In this document: positions 17,725 through 35,031 of the stretch, one piece after another
Position numbering within the stretch: the first letter of the stretch is position 1
Layout of the letters: each line of letters begins with the position of its first letter
NCBI RefSeq assembly: GCF_003814835.1
Contig: NZ_RKRG01000002.1
Location: 310,001 to 374,000 of the forward strand
From: Methanobrevibacter gottschalkii DSM 11977
GTDB taxonomy: Archaea > Methanobacteriota > Methanobacteria > Methanobacteriales > Methanobacteriaceae
DNA length: 64,000 bases
Direction: 5' to 3'
Notes under the pieces: model-generated
The model's input: the letters and a program-made list of their open reading frames with translations, nothing else
Told to the model about the DNA's origin: nothing
Database searches by the model: none
Program-made: the position numbers and the translations under genes

Positions 17725-18762
17725 ATGGTAGGAATTGTAGGATATGGGGCATATGTTCCCTCATATAGAATTAAAGTAGAAGAAATTGCTAAAGTTTGGG
17801 GAGATGACCCTGTAGCTTTATCAAGAGGATTAATCGTTAATGAAAAATCCGTACCTTCTTCTGATGAAGATACTGCAACAATTGCAGTTACTGCTGCTAG
17901 ATACGCTCTAGCAAGAGCTCAGATTGATCCAAAAAATATTGGTGCGGTTTATGTCGGTTCCGAATCACATCCTTATGCAGTAAAACCAACTGCTTCAATT
18001 GTTGCTGAAGCAGTTTGTGCAACTCCAAAATTAACTGCTGCGGATCTGGAATTTGCTTGTAAAGCAGGAACTGCTGGCATTCAAATGTCTATGGGACTTG
18101 TTCAATCTGATATGGTTGATTATGCTTTAGCTATTGGTGCTGATACATCTCAAGGAGCACCAGGTGATGCTTTAGAATACACTGCATCTGCTGGCGGGGC
18201 CGCATATATTATTGGTAATGATAATACTGTTGCCGATATTGAACACACTTGCAGCTATACAACTGATACTCCTGATTTTTACAGAAGGGAGGGTGAGCCT
18301 TACCCATCTCATGGTGGACGTTTTACAGGAGAGCCGGCTTACTTTAAACATGTTTTAAGCGCTGCCGAAATGTTATTCGATGAAACCAATACCGCTGCTG
18401 AAGACTATGATTATGCTTGTTTCCACCAGCCTAATGGTAAGTTTTACTTAAGGGCAGGTAAAAAATTAGGATTCACTTCTGAACAGATTGAAAGAGGATT
18501 ACTCACTCCTAATATTGGAAACACTTATTCCGGTGCCGTACCTTTAGCGTTGTCTAATATTTTAGATGTTGCAGAACCTGGAGATAAAATATTTGTTATT
18601 TCATATGGATCCGGTGCTGGAAGTGATGGTTTTGCAATAACTGTCAAAGATGAAATTGAAGAGAGAAGAGAATTGGCTCCGAAAACAGAAGATATCATCA
18701 GTAAAAAAACCTATGTTGATTATGCTGTATATGCTAAATTCAAAGGTAAAATTAAAATGTAA
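17725..18762 (+). CDS. Hydroxymethylglutaryl-CoA synthase
   Basis: Condenses acetyl-CoA with acetoacetyl-CoA to HMG-CoA, the second step of the archaeal mevalonate route to isoprenoid membrane lipids. The thiolase-fold protein has nucleophile Cys112 in EFACKAG, an acidic residue in [12 protein letters not shown] (about 78-89) and catalytic His234 in CFHQPNGK. At 345 residues it matches the archaeal form. AAGGTGATTT precedes ATG 17725. The thiolase that supplies acetoacetyl-CoA starts 12 bp downstream. Confidence 0.96.
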
Positions 18763-19957
<1,195 letters not shown>

Positions 19958-20881
19958 ATGATAATTAACACAGGTTCCAGAACTGACATTCCCGCTTTTT
20001 TCAGTAAATGGCTTTTAAACAGAATTGATGAAGGTTCAGTCTGCACCAGAAACCCATACAATGATGATATTTATAAATATCCGTTGGATTCAAAAATAAT
20101 TGACTGCTTGTGTTTTTGTACTAAGAATCCAAAACCGATGATTGCTAGTTTGGATAAGCTGGATGATTTCAGACAATACTGGTTTGTAACAATAACTCCT
20201 TATGGAAAAGATATGGAACCCAATGTTCCAGGTTATAAAAACGTAATGAAATCATTCAAAAAGTTGTCTGAACATTTGGGAATCGGCAAAGTATCCTGGA
20301 GATATGACCCCATTTTCATATCTGAAAAATATAATCTGGATTTCCATATTGAAATGTTTGATAAAATGGCATCTGAACTTGGGGATTATACGAATGATTG
20401 TACAATCAGTTTCATTGATTTGTATCAAAAGGTCTTGAGAAACTTTCCCAATTCAAAGGAAGTTACTCAGGATGAACAATTAATTATAGGCAGGGAATTT
20501 TCAAAAACAGCTAATGAACACAATATTAAAATGAAAACATGTGTTGAAGGAACTTTGCTTGACCAGTTCGGCTTTGATTCAAGAGGATGCATGACTCAGG
20601 AAGTAATCGAAAAAGCTATTGGTAAAAATTTAAAAATCCCTAAAGGAAAATATAGAATCCGTGAATGCGACTGTATATTTGGAAGGGATATCGGAGCATA
20701 TAATACCTGCCTGCATGGATGCAAGTATTGCTATGCAAACACCAACATGAAGCTGGTTAAAAAGAATCAAAAACTGCATAATTCAAATTCACCATTATTG
20801 ATCGGGGATGTTAAAGAGGGTGATGTTGTAAAAGAGGTTAGGGAACCTAGCTATATTGATACACAACAAAGATTCATTTGA
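19958..20881 (+). CDS. DUF1848 family protein
   Basis: A 307-residue protein of the DUF1848 family, biochemically uncharacterised. It opens with the family start MIINTGSRTDIPAFF and CTRNPYN, and contains FCTKNP, RYDPIF and a C-terminal Cys cluster: RECDCIFGRDIG, then TCLHGCKYCYAN, likely a metal or iron-sulfur site. ATG 19958 follows directly after the thiolase T-tract with no ribosome binding site, so initiation is unusual; an in-frame ATG at 19880 would overlap the thiolase by 53 bp and is less likely. Its last 160-190 bases are present as three decayed direct copies further right (near 22.4, 31.8 and 33.5 kb), making it the anchor of the ATPase island. Confidence 0.85.
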   Translation: MIINTGSRTDIPAFFSKWLLNRIDEGSVCTRNPYNDDIYKYPLDSKIIDCLCFCTKNPKPMIASLDKLDDFRQYWFVTITPYGKDMEPNVPGYKNVMKSFKKLSEHLGIGKVSWRYDPIFISEKYNLDFHIEMFDKMASELGDYTNDCTISFIDLYQKVLRNFPNSKEVTQDEQLIIGREFSKTANEHNIKMKTCVEGTLLDQFGFDSRGCMTQEVIEKAIGKNLKIPKGKYRIRECDCIFGRDIGAYNTCLHGCKYCYANTNMKLVKKNQKLHNSNSPLLIGDVKEGDVVKEVREPSYIDTQQRFI

Positions 20882-20902
20882 TTAGTGCATTTCCATATTT
20901 AA

Positions 20903-21000
20903 ATTTCATTTGCTTGAAATATATTTCTAATTTTCATATTGATTTTCAGTTAACTGAAAATAATATTAATTTTAGTATTTACTTTTCAATATACTGAAAA
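20903..21000 (+). promoter_or_regulatory. Three 18-bp inverted repeats at exact 40-bp spacing upstream of ATPase A1
   Basis: ATTTCATTTGCTTGAAAT (20903-20920), TTTTCAGTTAACTGAAAA (20943-20960, a perfect palindrome) and TTTTCAATATACTGAAAA (20983-21000) share the pattern WTTTCA-N6-TGAAAW and start exactly 40 bp apart. A TATA-like TTTATATT (21002-21009) follows the third. They look like operator or iteron sites for a dimeric DNA-binding protein. Confidence 0.8.
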
Positions 21001-21053
21001 CTTTATATTACAGTTATGATAAATTAATAATTATAAAAAGAAGTGTGGTTTTA

Positions 21054-22256
21054 ATGATCATCCAAAGAAAAGATTATATTGATAAAATTAATCCTTTTGT
21101 AAATAAACATATTATTAAAGTTTTAATAGGAGCAAGACGTTCCGGCAAGTCAACCATATTAAAACAAATTATTGATTCATTAATAAAACAAGGAACCCCA
21201 AAGGAGAATATTGTTTGGATGAACTTTGAATTAAGTGATTATTTTGAAATGGATAATATTAAAAAGCTTGAAGAGTTCATATCTAATAAAACTGAAAATA
21301 TTGATGGTAAAATTTATCTATTTTTTGATGAGATACAGATTGTTCCCCAATGGGAAAAATTAATCAATTCTTACTTTGCAAAAGAAAATTATGACATATA
21401 TATTACCGGATCAAACTCAAAATTATTGTCCGGCGAGTTTGCTACATATTTATCCGGCCGCTATGTGGAATTAAACATATATCCATTTTCTTTTAGGGAA
21501 TATCTTGAGTACTATGAAATTACTTCTGATTTCAAATCTCATTTTTACAGATATTTGGAAGATGGGGGTATGCCTTCAACATTTGACTACAGGGGTGATG
21601 ATAAAAGATTAATTCTGATTGATTTATACAATTCTATTGTCCTTAAAGATATAATTCAAAGAAATAATGTTAAAAATGTTGACTTGTTGGATAGAATTAT
21701 GAGATTTGTAATGTATAACATTAGCCAGCCCTTTTCCGCAAATAAAATTCATAAAAGACTAAAGCAAGATATGGTAAACTTATCTGTAAATACAATTTAC
21801 AATTATCTGAAATTCTTTGAAAATGCATGCCTGATTTATCAGGTAAAGCGCGAAGATTTACAGGGTAAAAGAATATTAAAACATGATGAAAAATATTATA
21901 TATGTGATTTGGGTTTTAGACAGGCAATAATAGGAAACAATCAAAGGGATATCACTCGTGCAATCGAAAATATTGTTTATTTGGAACTTTTAAGAAGAGG
22001 ATATGAAATCACCATCGGTAAAGTTGATAACTTGGAAGTAGATTTTGTATGCAAAAAACAAAATAAACTCATTTATATTCAAGTTTCTTATTTATTGGCA
22101 AGTGAAGAAACTATTGAAAGGGAATTTAAACCGTTAAATAATATTTCAGATAATTATCCGAAATACGTAATAACCATGGATGATGCGGACATGTCTCATG
22201 ATGGAATCATTCATTTGAATTTAATTGATTTTTTAAGGGATAATGAAGTGATTTAA
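21054..22256 (+). CDS. AAA_14/DUF4143-type ATPase (type A, copy 1)
   Basis: A 400-residue predicted ATPase. The Walker A loop is GARRSGKST (26-34) and Walker B is LFFDEIQ, followed by YITGSNSK, a sensor-like segment. The middle contains a winged-helix-like region (about 210-265), and the C-terminal third is the DUF4143 domain, which resembles a PD-(D/E)XK fold: GYEITIGKVDNLEVDF then IYIQVS, where the usual ExK is replaced by QVS. ATG 21054 is chosen over GTG 21045, which belongs to the ribosome binding region. Its closest relative in the window is the type A gene at 31978-33216. The cellular role is unknown. Three inverted repeats precede it and a DUF1848 remnant follows. Confidence 0.85.
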   Translation: MIIQRKDYIDKINPFVNKHIIKVLIGARRSGKSTILKQIIDSLIKQGTPKENIVWMNFELSDYFEMDNIKKLEEFISNKTENIDGKIYLFFDEIQIVPQWEKLINSYFAKENYDIYITGSNSKLLSGEFATYLSGRYVELNIYPFSFREYLEYYEITSDFKSHFYRYLEDGGMPSTFDYRGDDKRLILIDLYNSIVLKDIIQRNNVKNVDLLDRIMRFVMYNISQPFSANKIHKRLKQDMVNLSVNTIYNYLKFFENACLIYQVKREDLQGKRILKHDEKYYICDLGFRQAIIGNNQRDITRAIENIVYLELLRRGYEITIGKVDNLEVDFVCKKQNKLIYIQVSYLLASEETIEREFKPLNNISDNYPKYVITMDDADMSHDGIIHLNLIDFLRDNEVI

Positions 22257-22324
22257 CATCTGGAATTCATATTCTTTTTTAGGGAGTTTATAAACTCATT
22301 TTGTTTTTTAAATAATTTTTTGAA

Positions 22325-22410
22325 GACAAGTAATATTTGTTTTTATATGAAACAAAATTCACTAAAAATTAGCGGATAATTCCGCTACTTTTTACTATAA
22401 TTTGTTCGTA
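22325..22410. repeat. Intergenic repeat with AGCGGA hairpin, copy 1
   Basis: The 36-bp core at 22358-22393 matches 27673-27708 in 35 of 36 positions. It contains a 7-bp hairpin TAGCGGA-TAAT-TCCGCTA flanked by A5 and T5. Similarity extends left to AAGTAATATTTGTT (22328-22341). It sits between ATPase A1 and a DUF1848 remnant. Confidence 0.75.
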
Positions 22411-22443
22411 ATATATCAAACAAAAATCAAAAAAGCAGTAGCT

Positions 22444-22592
22444 AATTTCAATACTGTTATGCAAACGCCAACATGGAGCCGGTTAAAAAGAATCAAAAAC
22501 TGCATAATCTGGATTAGCCATTGATTATTGGGGAGGTTGTAAAAGAGGTTAGGGAACCTATCTACATTGACACTCAAACTAGGTTGTTTTAA
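22444..22592 (+). pseudogene. DUF1848 3'-end remnant R1
   Basis: Aligns with the last 160 bases or so of the intact DUF1848 gene. Read in frame it gives YCYANANMEPVKKNQKLHN, an internal stop, then a tail ending RLF and TAA at 22590-22592. It lacks five residues present in the intact gene near GDVKEGDVV. Its stop codon shares TTAA with the stop of the convergent ATPase B1. The upstream body of the gene is absent. Confidence 0.85.
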
Positions 22593-23779
22593 ATGCTTCT
22601 AAATGGGTATATTCCATTTTTTTCATAACTGTTCTTAAGCCAATATCCAAATATCGGGTCTGTAATTTGATATTTGTCATTTGCATATTCAATTAAATCA
22701 TAGTCCAGAAGGCGATTTAAGGGTCTGTTTAGTGATCCGCTAGTTACTTTGAGGGAATTTGCCACTTCTATTCTCTTTTTTGGATTTTCAAGTAGTGAAA
22801 TTATGATTTTCTGTTCCTGGAATGTTAATTTGGACCACATGTATACGAAATGGATTGCAAGATAATCAATTGAATCCTTGAATAATTCGCTTATGTTATT
22901 TTCACTTAATGTTAGGTTTTCTGGAAGATATTTTGCAAATATGTTGATGTAATAAGGAATTCCACGTGTGCATTTGTAAAATCTTTCAAATCCTCCATGG
23001 TCTAGTTGGATGTTTCTTCTCATTGATTTGATATAGTTTTCAGTGGTCTTTTTTGAAAATGGTTGAACTTCAATTGTCAGCATCCTCCCTCCAAATGCCC
23101 CTTTATTTCCATTTAAGTCATTTATTAAACTGTCTTTCAGGCTCATGCTTCCGCAAAAGATGTATGCAACATTCTTTTGTGTTTGAATGAAACTGCGCAT
23201 ATACCATAAAAATCCATTCAATTCATCTCCCAAATCTTTGATTAATTGGATTTCATCAATGAATATGAAAACTCCTTTTATCTTATCATTATTGTCTTCA
23301 TAAATTTTCTGAGGCAGTTCCATTACAAATTCCGCCAATCTCTCATAATTGTCTTCACTTTCAAAGATTGGGATGGGGATGTGTTCGTATGATAAGAGTT
23401 TATCTATTTTGAAATTTTTTGTTTTAAAATATTTTTCTATTTGATTGCTGATTGTTTTTAAGCCGAATTCTTTGGATGATCTGATGATTGAGTCGTAGAT
23501 TATTTTTATCATGCTTGCCCTTGTGAGATTTTTCTGTTGATATGCACTGCTTCTGGATAAATCGATATCTACAACTAAATATTCCCTTTCAAATTTATTT
23601 CTGATTTTTTTGATGAGGGCTGTTTTTCCAACTCCTCTAATTCCTGTTAATAGTATTGTGGGTGCGGAGTTGAATTCAGTGCTGATCAATAAATTTGATA
23701 ATATGTTGATTTCATCTCTTCGATTGAAAAATTGTGTTTCGGTTAAATTTGTATCTGTTATGCTTGCAATTTCATCCAT
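22589..23779 (-). CDS. Archaeal ATPase_2-type ATPase (type B, copy 1)
   Basis: A 396-residue predicted STAND/AAA-like ATPase. The Walker A motif is GIRGVGKT (46-53), Walker B is FIFIDEIQL, and FCGSMSL forms a sensor-like strand. A conserved GAFGGRM segment and RGIPYYIN follow. The C-terminal part (about 310-385) is a winged-helix-like domain (VANSLKVTSGSLNRPLNRLL), suggesting DNA binding; no nuclease domain is seen. It pairs with the type B gene at 33844-35031, sharing GAFGGRM, the winged helix and the ending N/K-G-x-YP. AT-rich inverted repeats lie upstream. Its stop codon overlaps the DUF1848 remnant R1. Confidence 0.82.
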   Translation of the reverse strand: MDEIASITDTNLTETQFFNRRDEINILSNLLISTEFNSAPTILLTGIRGVGKTALIKKIRNKFEREYLVVDIDLSRSSAYQQKNLTRASMIKIIYDSIIRSSKEFGLKTISNQIEKYFKTKNFKIDKLLSYEHIPIPIFESEDNYERLAEFVMELPQKIYEDNNDKIKGVFIFIDEIQLIKDLGDELNGFLWYMRSFIQTQKNVAYIFCGSMSLKDSLINDLNGNKGAFGGRMLTIEVQPFSKKTTENYIKSMRRNIQLDHGGFERFYKCTRGIPYYINIFAKYLPENLTLSENNISELFKDSIDYLAIHFVYMWSKLTFQEQKIIISLLENPKKRIEVANSLKVTSGSLNRPLNRLLDYDLIEYANDKYQITDPIFGYWLKNSYEKNGIYPFRSI

Positions 23780-23793
23780 CTGTTTCCCTCAAG

Positions 23794-23887
23794 TAATGTG
23801 TTTTTCATTATATAATATTATGTATTGTATTTTGAATTATGTAATTAACTTTTCATTATATTTTGTAATATAATGTATTTTTCATTA
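23794..23887 (-). promoter_or_regulatory. Three TAATG-N7-CATTA-type sites upstream of ATPase B1
   Basis: TAATGTGTTTTTCATTA (23794-23810), TAATTAACTTTTCATTA (23842-23858) and TAATGTATTTTTCATTA (23871-23887) are 17-bp imperfect inverted repeats starting 48 and 29 bp apart. A 22-bp inverted repeat (23854-23875) overlaps the last two. They cover the likely promoter of the leftward ATPase. Confidence 0.55.
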
Positions 23888-24012
23888 TATATAATCCTGA
23901 TTATTTAAAATACGGATTCAATTAAGTATGGTGTTGATGATAATTCCACATTAATTATAAATTTATTGACCAACATAAGTTATTAACAACATATTACAAC
24001 TGAGTGGTTTCA

Positions 24013-24187
24013 ATGAAAATTATATCATGGAATGTTAATGGATTTGAATCCATTATTGGAAAAGGATTGTTATAAGAGATAATAGCTCAATACACTGGCA
24101 TATTATGTTTACAGGAAGTCAAGTCAACTTAAATACCGGAAATTGAAAATTACATTTCTTACAATTATCCTGCATTTAGCTATTGAA
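24013..24187 (+). pseudogene. Exonuclease III (xth) N-terminal remnant
   Basis: Begins MKIISWNVNGFES, the characteristic exonuclease III N-terminus, then an in-frame stop, then GILCLQEVKS (containing the metal-binding Glu), another stop and a decayed tail. The rest of the gene is missing. A further short open stretch (near 24188-24241, SATRRMYKKLG) is not identified. It lies beside an intact gene of the same nuclease superfamily at 25199. Confidence 0.75.
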
Positions 24188-24268
24188 TCCAACTCAGCAA
24201 CCAGAAGAATGTATAAGAAATTAGGAAGAAGCAAGACCTAAAGTTGACTTTATTTAAAGGAGATTAAC

Positions 24269-25186
24269 ATGCCAATATATAATATTGATGGAGAAACATT
24301 AACTCCAATTAAACAGGTAAAATTTAAAAACGAAAGGGAATTACAGATTTTAACCGAAAAAAACCTTGAAGAACTATTCGGTTTAAAATTTATTGCAACT
24401 GAATTTCAGGTTGACAATTTAAGAATAGATACATTAGCATTCAATGAAGAAACTAATTCTTTTGTAATTATTGAATATAAGAATGTAAAAAATTATAGTG
24501 TTATCGACCAAGGATATAGCTATTTATCCCTATTGCTTAATAACAAAGCAGAATTTGTTTTAAAGTATAATCTTGTTTGTAATGCTGCATTATCTAAAGA
24601 TGAGTTTGATTTTTCACAAACCAATGTAATGTTTATCTCTCCAAGCTATACTACTTATCAATTAAGGTCTGTTGAATTTTCTGATATAGCTTTTGAATTA
24701 TGGAAAGTAGTTAAATATTCTAATGGTACTGTTTTATTTGATAAAGTTAATAATACTGATACTCAAGCTTCAATAAAACAAATTACCAAAGAAAACACTA
24801 GTAAAGATAAGGTCAATAAGGAAATTAAAAAATACACGGAAGAAGATACTTTAATGAACAAATCCGATGACATTAAATCTTTGTATGATAATTTAAAGGA
24901 ATTAATTTTATCCAATTATGATGATATTGAAATTAACCATTGGAAATATTATGTTGCAATTAAAGTGAATAATAAAATGGTTGCTACTGTAAGTGTTTTA
25001 TCAAAATCTTTGAAAACATGGATTAATTTAAAAGAAACTGAATTAAGAGATTCCGAAGGCAAAGTTAGAAATGTGTCTAATATTGGACATCATGGTGTAG
25101 GTGATTATGAGTATGTAATCTCTTCAGAAGATGATTTATATTATTTCAATAAGTTATTTAAACAATCTTACGATGAAAAAATTTAA
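24269..25186 (+). CDS. PD-(D/E)XK nuclease-like protein with DUF5655 C-terminal domain
   Basis: A 305-residue protein. Residues about 15-160 look like a restriction-endonuclease fold: RIDTLAFNE supplies the Asp and VIIEYKN the E-x-K catalytic signature, with a following helix containing DQGYSYLSLLL. A charged linker (about 165-200) leads to a C-terminal region (about 200-300) resembling DUF5655. AAAGGAG upstream supports ATG 24269. An endonuclease/exonuclease/phosphatase protein starts 12 bp downstream, so the two probably form an operon. A DNA-processing or defence role is plausible but inferred. Confidence 0.72.
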   Translation: MPIYNIDGETLTPIKQVKFKNERELQILTEKNLEELFGLKFIATEFQVDNLRIDTLAFNEETNSFVIIEYKNVKNYSVIDQGYSYLSLLLNNKAEFVLKYNLVCNAALSKDEFDFSQTNVMFISPSYTTYQLRSVEFSDIAFELWKVVKYSNGTVLFDKVNNTDTQASIKQITKENTSKDKVNKEIKKYTEEDTLMNKSDDIKSLYDNLKELILSNYDDIEINHWKYYVAIKVNNKMVATVSVLSKSLKTWINLKETELRDSEGKVRNVSNIGHHGVGDYEYVISSEDDLYYFNKLFKQSYDEKI

Positions 25187-25198
25187 GTAGGCCTTAAT

Positions 25199-25894
25199 AT
25201 GAAAATTGTTACTTGGAATGCCAACGGTAAATTCAGTGAAAAGTTTCCAGCTATTCTGGAAAAAGATGCTGATATTTATGTAATTCAGGAATGTGAAAAT
25301 CCTGAAATAATTAATTTAAAAGAATATAGTGAATTTTCTTCCAATTATTATTGGGTTGGTGAAAACCAATATTATGGTCTTGGAATATTTGCTAAAGATA
25401 ATGTAAAATTAGAATTGGTAGATTTGGATGATAAGGGACTCAGATATTTCATACCATTTACTGTTAATGATGATTTTAATCTTTTAGGTGTTTGGACCAA
25501 TCCTGATATGGATGGCACTAAAACAATTTATTATCCTAAAGAAATAACCAAATATTACGAAGAACACAAGGATTCAGGATTCTTCAATGAAGACATGATT
25601 ATCTGTGGAGATTTTAATTGTGATGTAAGATTAAAAGGCACTCATGCCAAGAATGTTTATGAAGTAATTGAAAAATTGTCTGAATGTGGTCTTGTAGACA
25701 TATATCACCATTTAACTGGTGAAAATGAAGGTGAGGAAACTACGCCAACTTTTTACATGTATAGGCACTTGGATAAACCTTATCACTTGGATCATATATT
25801 TTCGTCATCAGATAAAGTTAAAGCTTTGGAAATTGGTGATGCAGACAAATGGCTACAGTTAAGTGATCATGTACCGTTAATCTTTAAAATTTAA
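25199..25894 (+). CDS. Endonuclease/exonuclease/phosphatase family protein
   Basis: A 231-residue protein of the exonuclease III/DNase I fold. Motifs in order are KIVTWNANGKF (N-terminal Asn), VIQECE (metal-binding Glu, about 38), ICGDFNCDVR (Asp/Asn pair, about 140) and the C-terminal SDHVPL (catalytic His). It is compact and lacks a signal peptide. A GGCC-rich ribosome binding region precedes ATG 25199. Its gene partner is the nuclease-like DUF5655 protein upstream. Substrate (DNA, RNA or phosphoester) is not predictable. It is a different copy from the broken exonuclease III remnant 1.2 kb upstream. Confidence 0.85.
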   Translation: MKIVTWNANGKFSEKFPAILEKDADIYVIQECENPEIINLKEYSEFSSNYYWVGENQYYGLGIFAKDNVKLELVDLDDKGLRYFIPFTVNDDFNLLGVWTNPDMDGTKTIYYPKEITKYYEEHKDSGFFNEDMIICGDFNCDVRLKGTHAKNVYEVIEKLSECGLVDIYHHLTGENEGEETTPTFYMYRHLDKPYHLDHIFSSSDKVKALEIGDADKWLQLSDHVPLIFKI

Positions 25895-26072
25895 AAAATA
25901 ACCTTGTTGAAACCATGTTAAAATTTAAGTGAATATCGGTACTATTTGCTTTTTTGGTCAAATAATTTCTTTTTATTCTTTGTTTTTTTCTTCGTAAAAT
26001 TACTTTTTTTACTAATTCAATATATATTCGGTAATTTAGTCTTTAATTAGGAATTAATTTAAAATACTATTA

Positions 26073-26154
26073 TTCAAATATTTGAACAGTCTTTTATATA
26101 TAATTATTTAAATATTTGAATAATTATTTATATTGGTTAATTCAAATATTTGAA
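26073..26154 (+). promoter_or_regulatory. Three TTCAAATATTTGAA palindromes at exact 34-bp spacing upstream of ATPase C1
   Basis: TTCAAATATTTGAA at 26073-26086 and 26141-26154 and TTTAAATATTTGAA at 26107-26120 start exactly 34 bp apart. TATA-like TTTTATATAT and TTTATATT lie between them, so binding would overlap the promoter. The first ATG of the ATPase is 24 bp beyond the last site. Confidence 0.8.
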
Positions 26155-26177
26155 TATGAAGAAATCAGGGGATTGCC

Positions 26178-27629
26178 ATGTTTGAAAAGGAAGAATTAAT
26201 CACAAATTTCATTAAGGAAGAACTGACTGATGTTCCCAATATCTTGAACAAAGAGTTATCTAAAAACAATGAAAAATTCAACTCCAGAGAGGAACTGGAT
26301 GAGATAAAAGGATACATGGACACTTTTTTAAATGAAGATACATCAAATAAGATTATAGTTTTGCCGGGCCTCAGGGGCGTTGGCAAAACAACGCTGGTTC
26401 TGCAGGCATATGAATATCTCCTAAAAGAAAGGGACATTCCTCCCAGTAATGTATTATACATTTCCTTTGACGATTTAAATGATCTGGTTGAATGCAGTAT
26501 AAGGCAGATGGTTGAAATATACCTGAAAAACATATTTCATGCAAACATAAGGAATTTGGATGAAAAGGTTTTCATATTCGTCGACGAATCACAAACCGAT
26601 AAAAATTGGGCTTTATCCGGTAAGGTCATATATGACAAATCTTATAACATTTTCATGATATTTACCGGTTCATCTGCTCTTCATCTGGAACGCAGCGATG
26701 AGCTTGCAAGAAGGATGCGCAAAAAATCCGTAACTCCACTAAACTACACACAGCATCTGAAATTAAAGTATGGCATTGATGTGGGAAGTCTATCAGATGA
26801 TTTAAGAGAACTGGTATTCACTGGAAATATTGACAATGCGGCAGCCTCTGAATTTGAGGCAAATAACTTATTGACCAATTGTTTGGATTATTCTTCAACA
26901 GATTGGGACGAGTATTATAAATTCGGCGGTTTTCCAATATTATTTGACAAAAAGTCCCATAGGGAAATCTGTGAGGACTTGGTTGAAATCACAGAAAGGG
27001 TCATTACAAAAGACATGCCGCAGATAAAAGAGATTTCCTCTGAAAATCAATCCAATGCAAAACGTATATTGAGATATCTCGCCCTCCAACAGCCGGGTGA
27101 GTTAACACAGGCGAATCTGGCAAATTATCTGAAAACATCAACCGCAAATGTAAACAAAATATTGGATTTGCTTGAAAAAACTCATCTGATTTTCCATTGC
27201 GAACCATATGGAGGTTCAGCCAAAAGGGTTAAAAAATCATGGAAATATTATTTTGCAGCACCCAGCATCAGACACGCCCTGTCAGCTAAAATAGGAAACC
27301 CATTATTGGGAACTGATGATTATGAAGGTCTGCTTCTGGAAAATCTTGTAGCGTCAAATTTGTTTAACTTATCCAATAGGCAATTCACAAATTTCACAGT
27401 TTATTATGATGCAGACAAAAAAAGAAATGTTGATTTTCTGATTCATAAGGATTCAGAAAACATCATCCCAATTGAGGTGGGACGTGGAAAGAAAAAGAAA
27501 CTGCAGATCAAACATGCCATTAACAGATATGATTGTGAATATGGCATAGTGGTTGCAAATAACTATTCTTCTCTAAAAAAAGATGATGATGTAATTTATA
27601 TATCTCCAAAAACATTTTCATTTTTATAG
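26178..27629 (+). CDS. AAA-type ATPase with C-terminal nuclease-like domain (type C, copy 1)
   Basis: A 483-residue predicted ATPase. An N-terminal extension of about 60 residues precedes Walker A GLRGVGKTT (64-72). Walker B is FIFVDESQ, and FTGSSALHL is the sensor-like strand. A winged-helix-like region spans about 295-350 (ANLANYLKTSTANVNKILDLLE). The C-terminal part has KRNVDFLIH and IPIEVGRG, resembling a PD-(D/E)XK core with the lysine altered. GGGG lies 9 bp before ATG 26178. Its paralogue at 29096-30535 has the same layout and nearly the same C-terminus. Three palindromes at 34-bp spacing precede it. Function unknown. Confidence 0.85.
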   Translation: MFEKEELITNFIKEELTDVPNILNKELSKNNEKFNSREELDEIKGYMDTFLNEDTSNKIIVLPGLRGVGKTTLVLQAYEYLLKERDIPPSNVLYISFDDLNDLVECSIRQMVEIYLKNIFHANIRNLDEKVFIFVDESQTDKNWALSGKVIYDKSYNIFMIFTGSSALHLERSDELARRMRKKSVTPLNYTQHLKLKYGIDVGSLSDDLRELVFTGNIDNAAASEFEANNLLTNCLDYSSTDWDEYYKFGGFPILFDKKSHREICEDLVEITERVITKDMPQIKEISSENQSNAKRILRYLALQQPGELTQANLANYLKTSTANVNKILDLLEKTHLIFHCEPYGGSAKRVKKSWKYYFAAPSIRHALSAKIGNPLLGTDDYEGLLLENLVASNLFNLSNRQFTNFTVYYDADKKRNVDFLIHKDSENIIPIEVGRGKKKKLQIKHAINRYDCEYGIVVANNYSSLKKDDDVIYISPKTFSFL

Positions 27630-27638
27630 CGAGACAGG

Positions 27639-27724
27639 GATAAGTAATATTTGTTCTTTAGATATAAGAGATTTCACTAAAAATTAGCGGATAATTCCAC
27701 TACTTTTTGTTCATTATTTGTTAA
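27639..27724. repeat. Intergenic repeat with AGCGGA hairpin, copy 2
   Basis: Begins just after ATPase C1. Its core 27673-27708 matches the copy at 22358-22393 with one mismatch, which weakens the hairpin (TCCACTA in place of TCCGCTA). The left block AAGTAATATTTGTT (27642-27655) is also shared. No DUF1848 remnant follows this copy. Confidence 0.75.
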
Positions 27725-27915
27725 TAATGGAAGTGTCTGTCAAAAGTAATTTTTTTGATGCGAATTTTTCTTTGTTTTGAATGGAAGTACTTTTAATCAG
27801 TTTCAAAAATTAATTCTGGATTTTTGGAGGACACTCGAGAATGGATGAAAAATATAAAATAAATTTAGTGAAAAGTATAAAATGAAATGGGTGAAAAATT
27901 TAAAAAGTGATTGTG
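27725..27915. other. Gene-free stretch with a weak inverted repeat
   Basis: GAAGTGTCTGTCAAAA (27730-27745) and TTTTGGAGGACACTCG (27822-27837) are partly complementary and about 75 bp apart, as might remain from a small mobile element. No coding signal is seen. Confidence 0.3.
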
Positions 27916-28868
27916 ATGAAAAAATATTTGCCAAGATATACTGACCGTGAACTGAAGGAATCATTGGAATAAGCAGGTAGGATAAAAAGAATCGTAATGC
28001 GTCCGATGAGTTTATATGAAAGCTGTGAATCCACAGGTGAAATTTCATTAATGGAATTATTCAATAATCATGATTTAAACATTGATGGTGTAACATCAAA
28101 TTTGACAATACCCGATTTGATATTTGCCGCCTGAGAGGGGAATGACCCGATTCCCTAAACAAAAAAACCAAAAAACAGCAATTGGCAATTGTATCCGATT
28201 ACATAGGCATAATATGCAATAGTGATGTTTCAGAAGTAGATGGTGTTAAACGAAACCCCCAAAGGGTAAAAGCAATCTTAAAATCATATGCTCGGAACAT
28301 ATCAGCACTGCCAACTAAAAAAACACTCATGAAAGATGTAAGAACTGAACACGGAGATATCTCTGCACCAACATATAATTTATACATCAATGCCCTTGAA
28401 AGGTTATATGTTATTCAGGACATTCCTGCATGGTCGCCAAATATCAGATCTGCAAACACAATCAGAAAATCCCACAAAAAAGAATTCACTGACCCATCAA
28501 TAGCAGTGGCAAGCCTTAACTTGACACCAGAAAAAATTGCTGAAAGACTTCGAAACCTTTGGATTCATATTTGAAAACCTCTGTATATGTGACCTGCTGG
28601 TTTATTCAAGTTCAGTCAACGGAGAAGTGTTATATTACAATGATGACAGCGGTCTTGAAGCAGATTGTGTAATATATCTAAATGATGGAAGATATGCATT
28701 GATAGAATTTAAATTGGGCAGTCGTGAAATTGAAAAGGGAGCGGAAAACTTACTTAAACTAAAAAATTAGGGGATGATGATTTAAAGAAATATAATAAAG
28801 TTTTTTCTAATTTGCGCACTGGTGGAATAATTGTTATGCATAAACCTGGAAATTTTGGAGTTTCATAG
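27916..28868 (+). pseudogene. Broken AAA_14/DUF4143 ATPase of a fourth type (type D)
   Basis: A decayed gene. It starts MKKYLPRYTDRELKESLE and stop, matching the start of the bacterial-type DUF4143 ATPases, then jumps past the P-loop to RIVMRPMSLYESCESTG. After two more stops, a long frame (28182-28574) carries the middle and DUF4143 region. A frameshift near 28560 leads to a second frame (28537-28770) with LEADCVIYLNDG and ALIEFKLGS, a PD-(D/E)XK-like pattern. A further shift continues to TAG 28868. The Walker A region is deleted, so it cannot be an active ATPase. Unlike types A-C it resembles widely distributed bacterial genes, suggesting transfer followed by decay. Confidence 0.8.
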
Positions 28869-29095
28869 ATCCAATTATTCTTGAAACCGAAATATACTGT
28901 TTTTATCAAGATAAATTAATAATTATTCCTTGCCGTTCATTTAAACATAATACATCATCAAAAACAATCCTTTCACTAATATTATGGTCTATTATTTGAT
29001 CATATGGATTAATTTTGTGTTTGCATTTTATGAACAAGTATTTATATAATAATGTCCATAAATTATAAACAAACCAATGTAATGGAGGATTAATG

Positions 29096-30535
29096 ATGGA
29101 AGACGTAATCTATAACTATCTTATAAAACAGTTATCTGAAGTACCTATGATTCTAAACAGGAGATTATCATATAAAAACATCAAGTTCAATAACAAAAAC
29201 GAATTTGATAAGCTCAGATTAATGATTGACAGTTTTTTAGATGGGGAATCTGAAGAAAGATACTTTGTACTTCCGGGAATTCGTGGGGTTGGAAAAACAA
29301 CAATATTATACCAATGCTATGAGTACCTGTTAAAGGAAAAAAACTTCAATTCAAGTGATCTGTTATACATTTCATGTGAAACAACTAATTTCGCAGGGGA
29401 AACAGATATCAAAAAAATAATAGAAATTTATTTAGATGAAATTCACAATACGTCCCCCGCACTTTTGGATAGGCCTGTTTTCATTTTCATAGATGAAGCG
29501 CACTTTGACATGAATTGGGCAATGAACGGAAAAACCCTTTATGATGAATCCCCATATATTTTCCTGATATTGGCAGGTTCATCATCACTTCATCTAAATT
29601 ATAATTCTGATGCTGCCAGAAGGCTCAATATACTGCCGGTCATGCCATTAAACTATTCCCAGCACTTAAGCTTAAAGTACAACTACCAAACAGATATCGG
29701 AAATGACTTAATCGATTTGATATTCACAGGAAACATTGAAGCAGCACAGGAAAAGGAACTAAAAATCCAAAAGGACTTAATAAGCTTAAATAGTTATCCA
29801 TTAAATGACTGGAACATTTATTTAAACTATGGCGGATTTCCAGCAACATTCAACATCAAATTCGAGGACATAATTGTATCTAAACTATGGACAATAATAT
29901 CCAAAGTAATAACTGTCGACATGGCGAATGTATTCAATTTAAACAAGAACAATCAAAACCTGGCTTATAAAACATTGGTGTATCTGGCATCACAAAAACC
30001 GGGAGAAATATCACATGACAAACTGTCAAACTACTTGGATTGCGGCAAAACAACAATAAACAATATTATCAACACATTGGAAAAGACACAATTGATATTT
30101 CACAGTGAAGCTTATGGTGGAGCTTCCAAAAAAGTTAAAAAACCATGGAAATATAATCTTGCAACACCAAGTATCAGAAACTGCATAAACATAAAATTCG
30201 GAAACAGCGCAGGATCAAAAAGTGAATATGAAGGAATATTACTGGAAAACCAAATTGCATCTAATCTATTTAACCTAAACAACAATAACACATCATTCGA
30301 CTTCAATGTTTATTATGATTCGCAAAAGGGAGGCGTAGACTTTATCGTTAAAAAATTATTCGGCAATGCAATACCGATAGAATCAGGGATAGGCAGCAAA
30401 ACAAGAAGACAAATAAAAAAAGCAATGAATAAATATGATGCAGATTATGGAATTGTGGTTTCAAATAAAACAGATTTCATAGAAAAAGAAGATGATGTGA
30501 TATTCATACCTCCAAAAACATTCACATTTTTATAA
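29096..30535 (+). CDS. AAA-type ATPase with C-terminal nuclease-like domain (type C, copy 2)
   Basis: Paralogue of the gene at 26178. Walker A is GIRGVGKTT (about 63-71), Walker B FIFIDEAHF and the sensor-like strand LAGSSSLHL. A winged-helix-like region (LSNYLDCGKTTINNIINTLE) lies near 300-340. The C-terminal domain has GGVDFIVKK and IPIESGIG, a degenerate PD-(D/E)XK-like core. The two proteins end almost identically (IPPKTFTFL versus ISPKTFSFL). GGAGGA at 29084-29089 fits ATG 29096 best; an adjacent ATG at 29093 would add one residue. Unlike copy 1, its upstream region shows no clear evenly spaced palindromes. Confidence 0.83.
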   Translation: MEDVIYNYLIKQLSEVPMILNRRLSYKNIKFNNKNEFDKLRLMIDSFLDGESEERYFVLPGIRGVGKTTILYQCYEYLLKEKNFNSSDLLYISCETTNFAGETDIKKIIEIYLDEIHNTSPALLDRPVFIFIDEAHFDMNWAMNGKTLYDESPYIFLILAGSSSLHLNYNSDAARRLNILPVMPLNYSQHLSLKYNYQTDIGNDLIDLIFTGNIEAAQEKELKIQKDLISLNSYPLNDWNIYLNYGGFPATFNIKFEDIIVSKLWTIISKVITVDMANVFNLNKNNQNLAYKTLVYLASQKPGEISHDKLSNYLDCGKTTINNIINTLEKTQLIFHSEAYGGASKKVKKPWKYNLATPSIRNCINIKFGNSAGSKSEYEGILLENQIASNLFNLNNNNTSFDFNVYYDSQKGGVDFIVKKLFGNAIPIESGIGSKTRRQIKKAMNKYDADYGIVVSNKTDFIEKEDDVIFIPPKTFTFL

Positions 30536-30725
30536 AAACTGCTGTAGGAATTCTCATTTTCATTGAATCTGAGTTGATTGGTAGGTAAATTATGGCTTTG
30601 AGTTTTGTTTATTTATTTGATGGATCTGAGATTCTGCTTATTTATCAAATATTCTTTTTATTGCTTTGAATATTGTCATTCTTTAAAAATGTATTGAATA
30701 TTCATTTAACACAATTTTTGAGTAT

Positions 30726-31181
30726 TTAAATGTTATATTTAATGAATTGTATAGTACGCTTCTGTTCACTTAGATTTTTTAATTCTATTTCTTCAAAAAG
30801 TCCAAATCCGTTATCTAAACTGATTACATAATCCAAATTATAATGATTATATATTATGACTTGTGAGCAATCTATAAAACTTACCTTAAAGCTATTTTGA
30901 TTGTATTTTTCAAAAACGGATAATACATTGTCATTGTACATGCTGATTTCACTTTCATGAATGATGGTGAAATTGTCCTTTAGATAATTGTAAACTGTTC
31001 TAACCAACCCAATGTCTTTTGTTTTCTGCCCAATAATTGTCATTACTTCAGCCAATATTCCGTCTGTGATGTAGCAGTCATTATTAAGCATGTCCTTGTT
31101 TTCAATGGCCTTTTGGTGAAGCCCATCATTTTTCCTAAACAATGCAATGATGAATGATGAATCGATTAACAGTTTGCTCAT
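30726..31181 (-). CDS. PIN-domain toxin (VapC-type)
   Basis: A 151-residue PIN-domain protein, the usual toxin of VapBC systems, cutting RNA at a metal centre. The acidic residues are visible: Asp7 in LLIDSSF, Glu45 in ILAEV, Asp104 in FIDCS and Asp123 in ISLDNG. The start overlaps the antitoxin gene by 4 bp, the classic translational coupling. It lies in the ATPase island between type C and type A ATPases; such pairs often stabilise mobile regions. Its RNA target is unknown. Confidence 0.85.
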   Translation of the reverse strand: MSKLLIDSSFIIALFRKNDGLHQKAIENKDMLNNDCYITDGILAEVMTIIGQKTKDIGLVRTVYNYLKDNFTIIHESEISMYNDNVLSVFEKYNQNSFKVSFIDCSQVIIYNHYNLDYVISLDNGFGLFEEIELKNLSEQKRTIQFIKYNI

Positions 31182-31420
31182 TTGTATAGACTCCTTTTTA
31201 GTTCAACTGCATTTCTTGGATCATCATCTTCAATGATTCCGATTACATCTTCTAAACTTACTTTTTTTCTTGGTTTTATTATGATTTCATTTTCTTCATT
31301 GATGAACCAGTCAATAACTGTGTCTTTACTGTTCAGTTCTTTAAATTGACTGCGAATGACCTTGGGTATGGCCAGTTGATAGTTTTTATATAATGTTGTT
31401 GTAGCTAGTATATTATCCAT
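31178..31420 (-). CDS. AbrB-type antitoxin (VapB-type)
   Basis: An 80-residue SpoVT/AbrB-like protein. The swapped-hairpin DNA-binding part is N-terminal (YKNYQLAIPKVIRSQF and a strand ending IIIKPRK); the acidic C-terminal tail (EDVIGIIEDDDP) probably binds and blocks the toxin. It precedes and overlaps the PIN toxin gene by 4 bp. A 19-bp near-perfect palindrome about 36 bp upstream of its start is a likely operator for autoregulation. Confidence 0.82.
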   Translation of the reverse strand: MDNILATTTLYKNYQLAIPKVIRSQFKELNSKDTVIDWFINEENEIIIKPRKKVSLEDVIGIIEDDDPRNAVELKRSLYK

Positions 31421-31455
31421 GATTTTCAGACTCCTGTATTATTGTTGATTAATTA

Positions 31456-31474
31456 TATATTTTCAGAAAATATA
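31456..31474 (-). promoter_or_regulatory. Putative operator palindrome of the VapBC pair
   Basis: TATATTTTCAGAAAATATA is a 19-bp inverted repeat with one central base, located 36 bp upstream of the antitoxin start and overlapping TATA-like sequence. Antitoxins of this class usually repress their own operon. Confidence 0.6.
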
Positions 31475-31813
31475 AAATTATCTGAAATTTAAGCTCTTTC
31501 AAAAACTTGTGTGATTTGAATTTTGATTAGTTTTTGAGTCATGAAATTTTTTTATTGATATTTTTTCTTATTTTTTAATTTAAATGTAGTAAAATTAATA
31601 TATTAAGTGAAAATTATATATTAATAGGGTTAAATATAAAATAAAAGATTCATATAATGGTATGAAATCAAAAGAACTTAAACATTCGATTTTACCCAAA
31701 TTTTTCTGGATTCTGTCAATCTTATGTTTTTTCCCCATTTGGTTATGAAAATATTGAAGATAATCTTATTTTTGAGAATGGAATTGCTATTTGTTCATAG
31801 TTATCGAACAAAT
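31475..31813. other. AT-rich intergenic stretch without a supported gene
   Basis: Contains only short frames. A 28-codon frame near 31662 (MKSKELKHS) ends quickly and a following frame is equally short, so this may be a decayed gene, but I cannot identify it. No clear promoter is seen. Confidence 0.35.
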
Positions 31814-31980
31814 TTCACTAAAAGTAGTACATAATTCAATATGTATTATGCAAATGCCAACATGAAGCTGGTCAAAAGGAACCAGAAGTTGCATAGTCCT
31901 GATTTGCCATTGCTGATTGGTGATGTTGTAAAAGAGGTTAGTGAACCCGCTATATTGACACACAACAAAAGATTATTTTA
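31814..31980 (+). pseudogene. DUF1848 3'-end remnant R2 with degenerate hairpin repeat
   Basis: Bases 31814-31832 match the start of the AGCGGA repeat (TTCACTAAAA then ATAATTC) but the hairpin is lost. From about 31835 the sequence matches the end of the DUF1848 gene: YANANMKLVKRNQKLH, then LPLLIGDVVKEVSEP. Compensating one-base changes near 31950-31970 break and restore the frame, which ends RLF plus TAA (31979-31981). As in R1 the KEGDV residues are absent. The TAA shares TTAA with the stop of the convergent ATPase A2. Confidence 0.85.
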
Positions 31981-33216
31981 AAATATTTCATCATGGTTAA
32001 AGTTTTTCAAAAAATCAATTATATTCATGTGTTTTATGCCATTTTGAGGTTGGACAGTTCTATCCATTGATAATACATATTTTGGATAATTATCTTTAAT
32101 CATTAATAATGGCCTAAACTCCCTTTCAATTGTTTCATCATTTTCCAGTAGATATGTAACTTGTATGTAGATTTTTTGGTTATTTTTTTTACATATGAAG
32201 TCTATTTCATAGTCATTTACTTTTCCTATTGTTATTTTATATCCATGTCGCTTTAATTCGATGAATATTATGTTTTCTAATATGTGGTCTATATTTCTTT
32301 GCTTTTCCTCAAGTTGTGATTTATAAAATCCAGTGTCGAGTAAATAATATTTTTCAGAGCCTATAATTTCTTTTTTTCCAGCAATATCTTCTTTTGAGGC
32401 TTTTGCAATTAGGTATGCATTTTCAAGATATTCTAAGTAATTGTAGATAGTTGGTTTTGTAATTCTAAGTTTTTCATGTTTTAAGTATTTGTATACTGCA
32501 TTTGCTGATATTAAATTTCCTGTGTTTTCAATTATATATTTTACAATTCTATTGAACAATCCAACATTTCTAATTTCATATCTTTCTACTATGTCATTTA
32601 GGATTATGGAAGAGTATATTCCATTTAACACTAGCTCTTTGTCATGTTGGGAGGATATGGTGAGAGGTATTCCGCCATATTTTTGGTATTCTTCGAAAAA
32701 GTTTTCCAAATCACTATTTAGTTCATTTGTTATTGAAGGGGGGTGATTTAATTCTTGTTTATAATCTAAAAATTCATTAAATGAAAATGGATATAGTTCT
32801 ATATTTACGTATCTTCCAGTTAATAATGTTGCAAATTCTGCAGACATTAATTTTGAGTTGGATCCTGTAATGTATATGTCGGTGTTTTCTAGTTTGTAGT
32901 AGCTGTTGATACTTACTTCCCATTCTTTAACATTTTGTATTTCATCAAAGAATAAATAAACTTTGTTTTCATGGGATTCTATGAACGGAACTACAATTTC
33001 ATCTAGTTGTTCTCGTGTTTTTATGTGATTGTATGTGGGTAACTCTAAATCTATTAGTAGTATATCTTCATCTTTGGTTCCTCTTTTTTTAAGTTCATGG
33101 ATAATTAATTTGAATAAATAGGATTTGCCGCAACGTCTCATGCCCGTTATTATTTTTATTAAATTTTTGCCCATAAAATTGTAAATTTTTTCTAGATATA
33201 ATTCTCTTTTTACCAT
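31978..33216 (-). CDS. AAA_14/DUF4143-type ATPase (type A, copy 2)
   Basis: A 412-residue paralogue of the gene at 21054. Walker A is GMRRCGKS, Walker B LFFDEIQN, followed by YITGSNSKLMSAEFA. The middle winged-helix-like region contains ANAVYKYLKHEKLRITKPTIYNY. The C-terminal DUF4143 domain has GYKITIGKVNDYEIDF and IYIQVT, again QVT in place of ExK. The start is ATG 33216, with GAGGG a few bases upstream; a GTG 15 bases earlier lies in the first upstream repeat. It is oriented opposite to copy 1. Three repeats at 40-bp spacing lie upstream and DUF1848 remnant R2 lies downstream. Confidence 0.85.
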   Translation of the reverse strand: MVKRELYLEKIYNFMGKNLIKIITGMRRCGKSYLFKLIIHELKKRGTKDEDILLIDLELPTYNHIKTREQLDEIVVPFIESHENKVYLFFDEIQNVKEWEVSINSYYKLENTDIYITGSNSKLMSAEFATLLTGRYVNIELYPFSFNEFLDYKQELNHPPSITNELNSDLENFFEEYQKYGGIPLTISSQHDKELVLNGIYSSIILNDIVERYEIRNVGLFNRIVKYIIENTGNLISANAVYKYLKHEKLRITKPTIYNYLEYLENAYLIAKASKEDIAGKKEIIGSEKYYLLDTGFYKSQLEEKQRNIDHILENIIFIELKRHGYKITIGKVNDYEIDFICKKNNQKIYIQVTYLLENDETIEREFRPLLMIKDNYPKYVLSMDRTVQPQNGIKHMNIIDFLKNFNHDEIF

Positions 33217-33231
33217 ATTGTCCCTCAACAC

Positions 33232-33331
33232 ATAGTTTTATATAAAATACTATTTTTACTTAATTAGATAAATAGTTTTATATAGAATACTTTTTATACT
33301 TACTTTATTAAATAGTTTTGTATAAAATAAA
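33232..33331 (-). promoter_or_regulatory. Three TATA-containing repeats at exact 40-bp spacing upstream of ATPase A2
   Basis: ATAGTTTTATATAAAATACT (33232-33251), ATAGTTTTATATAGAATACT (33272-33291) and ATAGTTTTGTATAAAATAAA (33312-33331) start exactly 40 bp apart. Each is an imperfect palindrome centred on TTTTATATAAAA, so it could act as TATA element and operator at once. The nearest copy lies 16 bp from the ATPase start. Confidence 0.8.
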
Positions 33332-33469
33332 ATATTTTTTTCCAGTTAACTAATATTAAAGAAACAAATTAATTATTAATTTAAAATTAAAGATATATAA
33401 TACTATGTTTAAGCAAAAAACAGTATTATGGTCAGTATAAATAAAAATAAAGATTAATCAATATTTATT

Positions 33470-33667
33470 TCTGTTGGATGATATCGGGACATATAACTGA
33501 TTATCATAGATTCAGATATTTCTATGCAGATTACAGCTTGAAACTTGTTGATGAATCAAAAGTTGCATCATAATGATTGTCCTTACTGACTGGCAATGTT
33601 AAGGTAATGGTGTTGCTAAGGAAGTTTCAGAACTTGATATATTGATGCTCAGTAAAAATTATTTTAA
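33470..33667 (+). pseudogene. DUF1848 3'-end remnant R3
   Basis: The longest and most decayed remnant. GATATCGGGACATATAACTG (33479-33498) matches the intact gene at the codons for DIGAYN. The following bases align with HGCKYCYAN, but both Cys codons have become Phe codons. The tail retains matches to QKLH, GDVK, VVKEV, EP and TQ before ATTTTAA at 33661-33667. Several shifts and stops are present. It lies between the type A and type B ATPases, repeating the order seen around R1. Confidence 0.75.
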
Positions 33668-33682
33668 TTATTTTGTATGTAT

Positions 33683-33843: not shown

Positions 33844-35031
33844 ATGAGTATTGTTCCATTGCATATTCCAATTAATGAAATCGACAGATATTTCTATAAC
33901 CGGACTGAAGATATTAAAAAAATTGAGTATTATCTAAATTCATTGGAAATCGGAATATCTCAATCATTATTAATAAGGGGAGTTAGAGGTGTTGGAAAAA
34001 CTTTTTTACTTCAAAAATTAAAACAGGACTCAAAAAAGAATTTTCTGGTTTCATACATTGATATTTCAAGAATTGTGGGCATTGATGATACGCAGTTAAC
34101 TGCACAATCAGTTTTATTGGAATTATTGGACGAAATGAACAATACAATCTATGATAAGATACATGACGGTAAAAAAGTAACTTTTCTTTTGAAAAAATTA
34201 ATTGACAAATTAAAAATTAAAGATTTCAGCTTTTCAAAAGGCATTCATATGGCTGAAATACCAATACCAGCAACCGAAGACAATTACAAAAAAATCAGTA
34301 AATTTGTAATGGAATATCCTCAAAATGTTGTTGAAAGTATTGATGGCATTAATGGATTCATAATTATAATTGATGAATTCCAGATGCTTAAAAAGTTAAA
34401 AAATCCAGAATCCTTTTTTTGGTTAATGAGGAGTTATAGTCAATTCCAATCAAATGTCAGTTATGTGATGAGCGGATCAATCTCACAAACATCAGATGCA
34501 ATTGAAATGTTGAATGGAGCAACTGGAGCATTTGGTGGAAGGATGATGCAAATAAATATAGATCCTTTCACAAAGCATGAAACCAAATCTTATTTCAATG
34601 ACAGATTTCCAGAAATAAAATTCACTGACGATGGTTTTAATCGTTTTTATGAGTATACAAAAGGAATTCCAATGTATATAAATAGCTTTTACAATGCATT
34701 ATCATCCCATGAAACATATGATGAAAAATCAATAGATTATATTTTCCTCAATAACATGGACCAAATTCTTGTAATGTGGATTAGGATATGGGGTACTTTA
34801 AACAAATATGAAAAAAAGATAATATGCGCCATGTTAAACAAAGAGAATATTTCCTGGTCTAAACTGGAAAGGAGTTTAGACATGTCTCCAGCTACTTTAA
34901 CCAAGTATATTAAAACTCTACAGGATAAGGGAATCATAAAATATCATGATGGAAATTATAATTTTGAAGATTTAATGTTAAAAACATGGCTGAATAATGA
35001 AAAAGAGAGGACTGGTGTTTATCCTCAATAG
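33844..35031 (+). CDS. Archaeal ATPase_2-type ATPase (type B, copy 2)
   Basis: A 395-residue paralogue of the type B gene at 22589. Walker A is GVRGVGKT (about 46-53), Walker B IIIIDEFQM, and VMSGSIS the sensor-like strand. It shares GAFGGRM and KGIPMYIN with copy 1. The C-terminal winged-helix-like region is LERSLDMSPATLTKYIKTLQDKG (near 345-367). AGGTG lies 9 bp before ATG 33844. It is in the opposite orientation to copy 1 and is the last gene of the island; cobQ follows convergently 17 bp away. Confidence 0.83.
   Translation: MSIVPLHIPINEIDRYFYNRTEDIKKIEYYLNSLEIGISQSLLIRGVRGVGKTFLLQKLKQDSKKNFLVSYIDISRIVGIDDTQLTAQSVLLELLDEMNNTIYDKIHDGKKVTFLLKKLIDKLKIKDFSFSKGIHMAEIPIPATEDNYKKISKFVMEYPQNVVESIDGINGFIIIIDEFQMLKKLKNPESFFWLMRSYSQFQSNVSYVMSGSISQTSDAIEMLNGATGAFGGRMMQINIDPFTKHETKSYFNDRFPEIKFTDDGFNRFYEYTKGIPMYINSFYNALSSHETYDEKSIDYIFLNNMDQILVMWIRIWGTLNKYEKKIICAMLNKENISWSKLERSLDMSPATLTKYIKTLQDKGIIKYHDGNYNFEDLMLKTWLNNEKERTGVYPQ

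Follow-up and report, generated by a model that had tools for sequence, protein, structure and literature searches.

Some mobile elements replace the 3′ end of a gene when they integrate, as e14 and phi21 do in icd and SCC does in rlmH, while tycheposons target tRNA. Phage satellites have been reviewed (PMC11389934), and archaeal integrons have been described that possess both IntI and attC (PMC9668308). In Methanobrevibacter smithii, the provirus Msmi-Pro1 has an att site inside a coding gene (PMC8371274), and excision of the virus MSTV1 at its att sites has been reported (PMC12134362). In the gut and rumen, methane is produced predominantly by Methanobrevibacter-group methanogens, whose gene exchange is poorly known.

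Here we describe a locus from Methanobrevibacter gottschalkii DSM 11977, contained in a stretch of 64,000 nucleotides (the window), and its counterparts in related genomes. We propose that its DUF1848 gene is very probably the attB gene of a tyrosine-recombinase element family in Methanobrevibacter-group methanogens, whose cassettes share a right end and whose insertion makes the array grow.

Copies of the DUF1848 3′ end in the window

A preliminary description of the locus held that the end of an intact DUF1848 gene recurs three times, in decayed form, on the plus strand directly beside ATPase genes. All three copies are real, with blastn matches to the gene end at 22452-22592 (R1, E 9e-25), 31847-31978 (R2, E 4e-22) and 33480-33670 (R3, E 2e-7), and R1 and R2 were also recovered independently by a repeat finder and by a whole-genome protein search. 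Open reading frames and domain matches gave the same order of gene and ATPases as had been described (gene-A-R1-B...R2-A-R3-B; Table 1), and the five residues absent from R1 and R2 correspond to a common 15-nt deletion.

Both R1 and R2 reproduce the last ~147 nt of DUF1848 and start exactly at a short core sequence, upstream of which their similarity to the gene is no better than that of shuffled sequences. The gene similarity of R3 reaches back beyond the core by at least 45 nt (1 of 1000 shuffles was as good), and R3 is therefore what remains of an older gene copy rather than a junction. The suggestion that the repeats are junctions thus holds for R1 and R2, which begin at the core, but not for R3. 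The gene that had been called intact is accompanied by copies as described, but its last 147 nt belong to the first cassette, which had been missed.

Table 1. Features of the DUF1848 locus, in positions of the window
Feature	Position	Strand	Basis or remark
HMG-CoA synthase and thiolase (anchor genes)	17725..19932	+	constant left flank of the array in relatives
DUF1848 target gene	19958..20881	+	PF08902, E 3e-93; residues 1-258 vertical, ~259-307 from first cassette
Putative recombination core in DUF1848 gene, CTATGCAAA, within CYAN codons	20731..20739	+	
Cassette 1: DUF1848 3′ end (20735-20881), AAA_14-DUF4143 ATPase A (21054-22256), right-end motif	20735..22460	+	
Cassette 1 right-end motifs: distal TTCACTAAAAATTAGCGGATAATTCCGC; proximal TTTGTTCGTA..CAAAC..AGCAGTAGCTAATTTC	22355..22460	+	
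R1, DUF1848 3′ end opening cassette 2; one in-frame stop, 15-nt deletion	22461..22592	+	
ATPase B, ATPase_2-type, first cargo of cassette 2	22589..23779	-	
Further cassette 2 cargo: DUF5655 protein, endonuclease/exonuclease/phosphatase-family protein, two AAA_14-DUF4143 ATPases, DUF4143 fragment	24269..30535	+	
Apparent decayed cassette right end, no core or DUF1848 3′ end behind it; after ATPase gene	27670..27708	+	motif comparison, repeat finder
Right-end motif and core closing cassette 2	31810..31851	+	6/42 mismatches to integrase-element end
R2, DUF1848 3′ end opening cassette 3; frameshifted, same 15-nt deletion as R1	31850..31980	+	
AAA_14-DUF4143 ATPase, cassette 3 cargo	31978..33231	-	
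R3, remnant of older DUF1848 gene end	33480..33670	+	homology ~45 nt upstream of core
ATPase B, ATPase_2-type, beside R3	33844..35031	+	
CobQ-type gene, right chromosomal flank of array, conserved in relatives	35049..36578	-	

Cassette 2 (22461-31849) contains several genes and, in its interior, a decayed cassette end, so that the island comprises more than three units. The internal motif has 8 mismatches in 39 positions to that of the integrase element, against 12 in the best of three whole-window shuffles, and on this comparison appears to be a lost cassette boundary. Identity to the gene end is 77% for R1, 74% for R2 and 67% for R3; this rise in decay with distance from the gene fits a model in which the newest unit lies nearest the gene, although R3 is a different kind of remnant. 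The window genome contains no integrase of the type found at DUF1848 in relatives (the best match is 55% identical and has other flanking DNA), nor a right arm (see below) within 3 mismatches. Since its ends are decayed, with a stop in R1 and a frameshift in R2, and both matching integrase and right arm are absent, the array in the window is most likely a relic that is now immobile.

A common core and the cassettes of related genomes

The gene or pieces of it are present in 48 of the 60 genomes of the genus searched. Besides full genes there are dozens of isolated pieces, which cover almost exactly residues 252-307 and occur in at least 29 of the 41 genomes that are at least 90% complete. When about 97 copies from 40 regions of relatives' loci were aligned, nearly all isolated copies were found to begin at one point, the core T(T/C)ATGC(C/A)AA, which lies in CYAN codons about 147 nt before the DUF1848 stop codon. 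Gene-like upstream sequence was detected in 19 of the 94 copies with full upstream sequence: 13 DUF1848 genes, 4 DUF1848-2 paralogs, one distal remnant and R2, whose marginal score fails a stricter test. The core behaves as a recombination site would; recombination itself is inferred.

The earlier proposal that elements integrate at the DUF1848 3′ end is supported by these alignments, in which the junctions of relatives use one common crossover point. Relatives also carry DUF1848 3′ ends beside the same ATPases and beside many other genes; the array is not specific to ATPases. The left flank is always HMG-CoA synthase, thiolase and DUF1848, and the right flank CobQ. The array is absent only at two loci lacking DUF1848 (G010 and G033), where thiolase is followed by CobQ within about 1.1 kb; an empty site with an intact DUF1848-1 directly before CobQ was found in no relative. 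Four loci (L072, L073, L076 and L128) have a second DUF1848-type gene, about 39% identical, which is the first gene of the full element described below; in G026 this second type adjoins CobQ.

Every unit opens with a DUF1848 3′ end, continues with cargo and closes with a right-end motif; orders and sites vary. Recurrent metabolic and transport cargo includes PdxS/PdxT, an HxlR regulator with a CbiA-like protein and TauE, and an MFS transporter; other recurrent cargo consists of MarR with HXXEE, a fumarate-reductase-like set with an ABC transporter, DUF2099, RhuM, and ATPases of the AAA_14-DUF4143 and ATPase_2 types. For copies of the same cassette in different contexts (TauE, PdxST, MFS and window cassette 1), homology starts at the core. 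The PdxST unit lies behind DUF1848 in G056 and at an unrelated site in relatives of G060 and in G050, with homology (95.9% identity, L049 versus L060) starting 2 nt before the core reference point. The 3.2-kb TauE unit is 98.3-99.3% identical in several contexts, its homology starting a few nt from the core. Cassette 1 of the window, including the end of the intact gene, matches G013 at 93% over 1.5 kb from the core on, compared to 80.8% for the backbone, and matches G115, from another genus, at 88% over 1.8 kb from the core on. The vertical homology of genomes with different first cassettes ends at +4 to +8 nt past the core reference point.

Cassette cargo reaches 99.4-99.9% identity between species, compared to 85.9% for the backbone of one such pair (G017/G006; L051/L053). 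One cassette is 99.6% identical between species whose backbones are 86% identical and is also found in another genus. In the 2,937,203-bp genome of G090, from another genus, an array with two TauE units (98.3-98.8% identity) lies elsewhere than the DUF1848 gene of that genome; because this genome is a single contig, an assembly artefact is ruled out as a general explanation. One site at which cassettes follow unrelated DNA (class-b) forms the right end of a 536-bp unit (L077:2276-2812, L230:8659-9195). This unit contains a short ORF and a TATA-like sequence and is possibly a promoter cassette at array starts.

The 3′ end of the gene itself is exchanged. Sixteen different sequences follow the gene among 22 DUF1848 genes/genomes, and the 3′ end is open in these genes. 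Between L035 and L138 the 5′ part is 93% identical and the end 71%, while between L049 and L062 the 5′ part is 76% identical, the end 96% and the sequence beyond the gene 99.6%. A same-cassette test of 3′ end similarity alone was only weakly significant (p 0.048). Isolated open ends have a median dN/dS of 0.19 and a pooled pN/pS of 0.26, with 57% of differences at third positions. These values suggest that isolated ends are under protein constraint, as they should be if the ends take turns in completing a working gene; recent capture from genes could be another source of the dN/dS. Cassettes restore the 3′ end of the target gene, whereas the full element instead truncates DUF1848-1 and brings DUF1848-2.

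A candidate integrase and its full-length element

In two genomes (G036 and G018) an integrase gene adjoins the first unit and is divergent from it. The protein (L056:8074-9180) matches PF00589 (28.7 bits, cut-off 27.1) and phrog_1 (E 1e-12); H265, R268, K198 and Y300 are invariant in 20 relatives, and the histidine, arginine and tyrosine align with those of XerA (5hxy). Both catalytic domain and catalytic residues place this candidate mover in the tyrosine recombinase family, and it is 58% identical to the integrase of MSTV1. Between the integrase and the core lie two copies of the right-end motif known from cassettes. In the full element the core is surrounded by inverted arms, AGTAGATAATTT and AAATTATCTACT. 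Of 75 isolated copies, 54 have the right arm AGTAGATAATTT (≤2 mismatches) ahead of their core, usually at offset -24, compared to 0.9% of background windows; some of the 21 copies without it are ends of PdxST cassettes and the class-b site.

A 96% identical integrase in G004 closes a 21,455-bp element inside an mcrB-type methyl-coenzyme M reductase gene (L076:3046-3087, L123:12499-12530), with the D, gamma and alpha genes of the operon following. Both junctions carry TTATGCCAA, the left end has the inverted arm AAATTATCTACTAC, and joining the flanks yields an open McrB frame; the element thus has direct core repeats, and its target is intact in the rejoined empty site. Its genes include the large subunit of a terminase, similar to psiM2 ORF9 at a score just under the cut-off, type III restriction-modification genes and a DUF1848-type gene, and a relative's copy carries an MCM helicase. 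The left end was detected in 12 genomes, with zero matches in a reversed-pattern control, mostly at the DUF1848 core, three times at the class-b site, once in mcrB and once at one further site; three of its sites are recurrent or verified.

All left-end matches in genomes adjoin host DNA, and behind one right arm (L193) lies sequence resembling a left end. Viral contigs yielded no left-end match, no complete attP and no match in a protein scan with the integrase, and the excised circle was not found. Three of them (L164-L166) contain the right-arm pattern and were rejected as chance matches inside a coding gene, with no array genes. Separately, 55 of 60 genomes have integrases 50-62% identical to the DUF1848-type one next to a variety of other host genes (L086, L098-L122). 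In G013 (L163:7579-8333) the first 120 residues of a DUF1848-type integrase adjoin decayed pieces of a cobQ 3′ end, a long way from the main cobQ locus.

In the mechanism that we propose, crossover would occur within the core at the CYAN codons. The full-length element, about 21.5 kb, would be the integrase-bearing member of the family, with inverted arms around the core, and the small cassettes would be non-autonomous members that have kept its right end and carry a spare DUF1848 3′ end at their start with one to several cargo genes. A point that weighs against the model is that the left end of the full element is not a DUF1848 3′ end, whereas cassettes start with that 3′ end in place of the left arm. 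The integrase would recombine the core of a circular form with that of DUF1848; the inserted cassette would supply a new functional gene end and push the old end and earlier cassettes downstream, so that repeated insertion would generate a tandem array with the newest unit nearest the gene. The same cassettes would also insert at other copies of the core. Sequence comparison shows a common core, the unit structure, the exchange of 3′ ends and near-identical cassettes across species, genera and sites, as well as an integrase gene beside the same right-end motif and core and a clean mcrB insertion of the full element. We infer that the DUF1848-type integrase moves cassettes in trans via a circular form. 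More broadly, the locus may fairly probably represent an integron-like system of archaea, independently derived from a provirus-type integrase, whose cassette site is the coding 3′ end of a host gene and by which metabolic genes (vitamin B6 synthesis, transporters) spread between species and genera of gut methanogens.

Alternative explanations and relation to known systems

Homologous recombination between the ~150-bp 3′ end repeats might instead be the main process that shuffles cassettes, in arrays that the integrase only founded. These repeats are long and similar, and the same cargo can be accompanied by different 3′ end variants, as in several cassettes; since cassettes with 99.5% identical cargo can carry 88% identical ends, homologous exchange inside ends also occurs. 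As the main process, however, it is unlikely: the left edges of common cassettes lie at the core and are not random within the 3′ end, cassettes at the class-b site follow unrelated DNA that offers no upstream homology, and the offset of the arm motif is constant.

Ordinary autonomous integrative elements might also have accreted in tandem and later lost genes, leaving small immobile units. This would agree with the decayed array in the window, and other elements are known to accrete at gene 3′ ends. Units of 1.5-3 kb nevertheless recur at 98-99.9% identity in different positions, species and genera, and because independent losses would not yield identical units we regard this route as quite improbable. 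A true archaeal integron, with IntI, attI and attC sites, is very improbable. The integrase gene does lie antisense to and beside the first site, each cassette has one site, cargo is diverse and cassettes recur; but NCBIfam gives only XerA/XerC/XerD models far below cut-offs and no integron-integrase model match, the integrase groups with archaeal provirus integrases, and the sites are coding and fold no better than shuffles (z 0.02 to -1.48; five folds, three sites), so that no marker tested makes the locus an integron. Decay of DUF1848 genes arranged in tandem, which the preliminary description had named as the rival pattern, is hardly credible and was rejected: R3 and a distal copy (L049:10341) do have gene-like upstream sequence, but the upstream test shows the other isolated copies stopping at the core, these frequently have an open frame and evolve under purifying selection, they move together with cargo from one species or genus to another, and no intact tandem genes in decay were found.

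A 2.9-kb circular DNA of M. smithii was considered as a related cassette and was retained as a lead only, as its borders lie in other genes and no direct repeats were found by the authors (PMC12134362). The literature searched contained no mention of DUF1848 and no description of such an array; the parts are of known kinds (tyrosine integrase, insertion at a gene end, cassette arrays), and it is their combination in this form that was not found there. The system offers a defined route of gene exchange, with a named core, a candidate integrase and cassettes that can be recognised in most of the well-assembled genomes of the genus. It suggests that an ordinary provirus integrase may give rise to integron-like arrays where cassettes bring along a spare gene end.

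The locus resembles integrons in its tandem cassettes with diverse cargo, in having one site per cassette and in the tyrosine recombinase gene that adjoins and diverges from the first site in two genomes. It differs in that the recombinase is of archaeal provirus type, the site is a protein-coding DUF1848 end rather than an attC-like hairpin, and the usual landing site is a host gene rather than an integrase-linked attI. With tycheposons and phage satellites it shares tyrosine recombinase islands, cargo and some packaging or replication genes, but no array of spare protein-gene ends has been reported for those elements. The e14/phi21 and SCC elements are likewise inserted before a stop codon, supply a substitute 3′ end and can occur in tandem; here, in contrast, single-gene cassettes form shuffled arrays, the host is an archaeon and the target is DUF1848. 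Finally, the integrase and terminase link the family to archaeal proviruses (MSTV1 and psiM2/psiM100), from which it is set apart by the many non-autonomous units of 1.5-6 kb that use one site and rebuild the end of the host gene.
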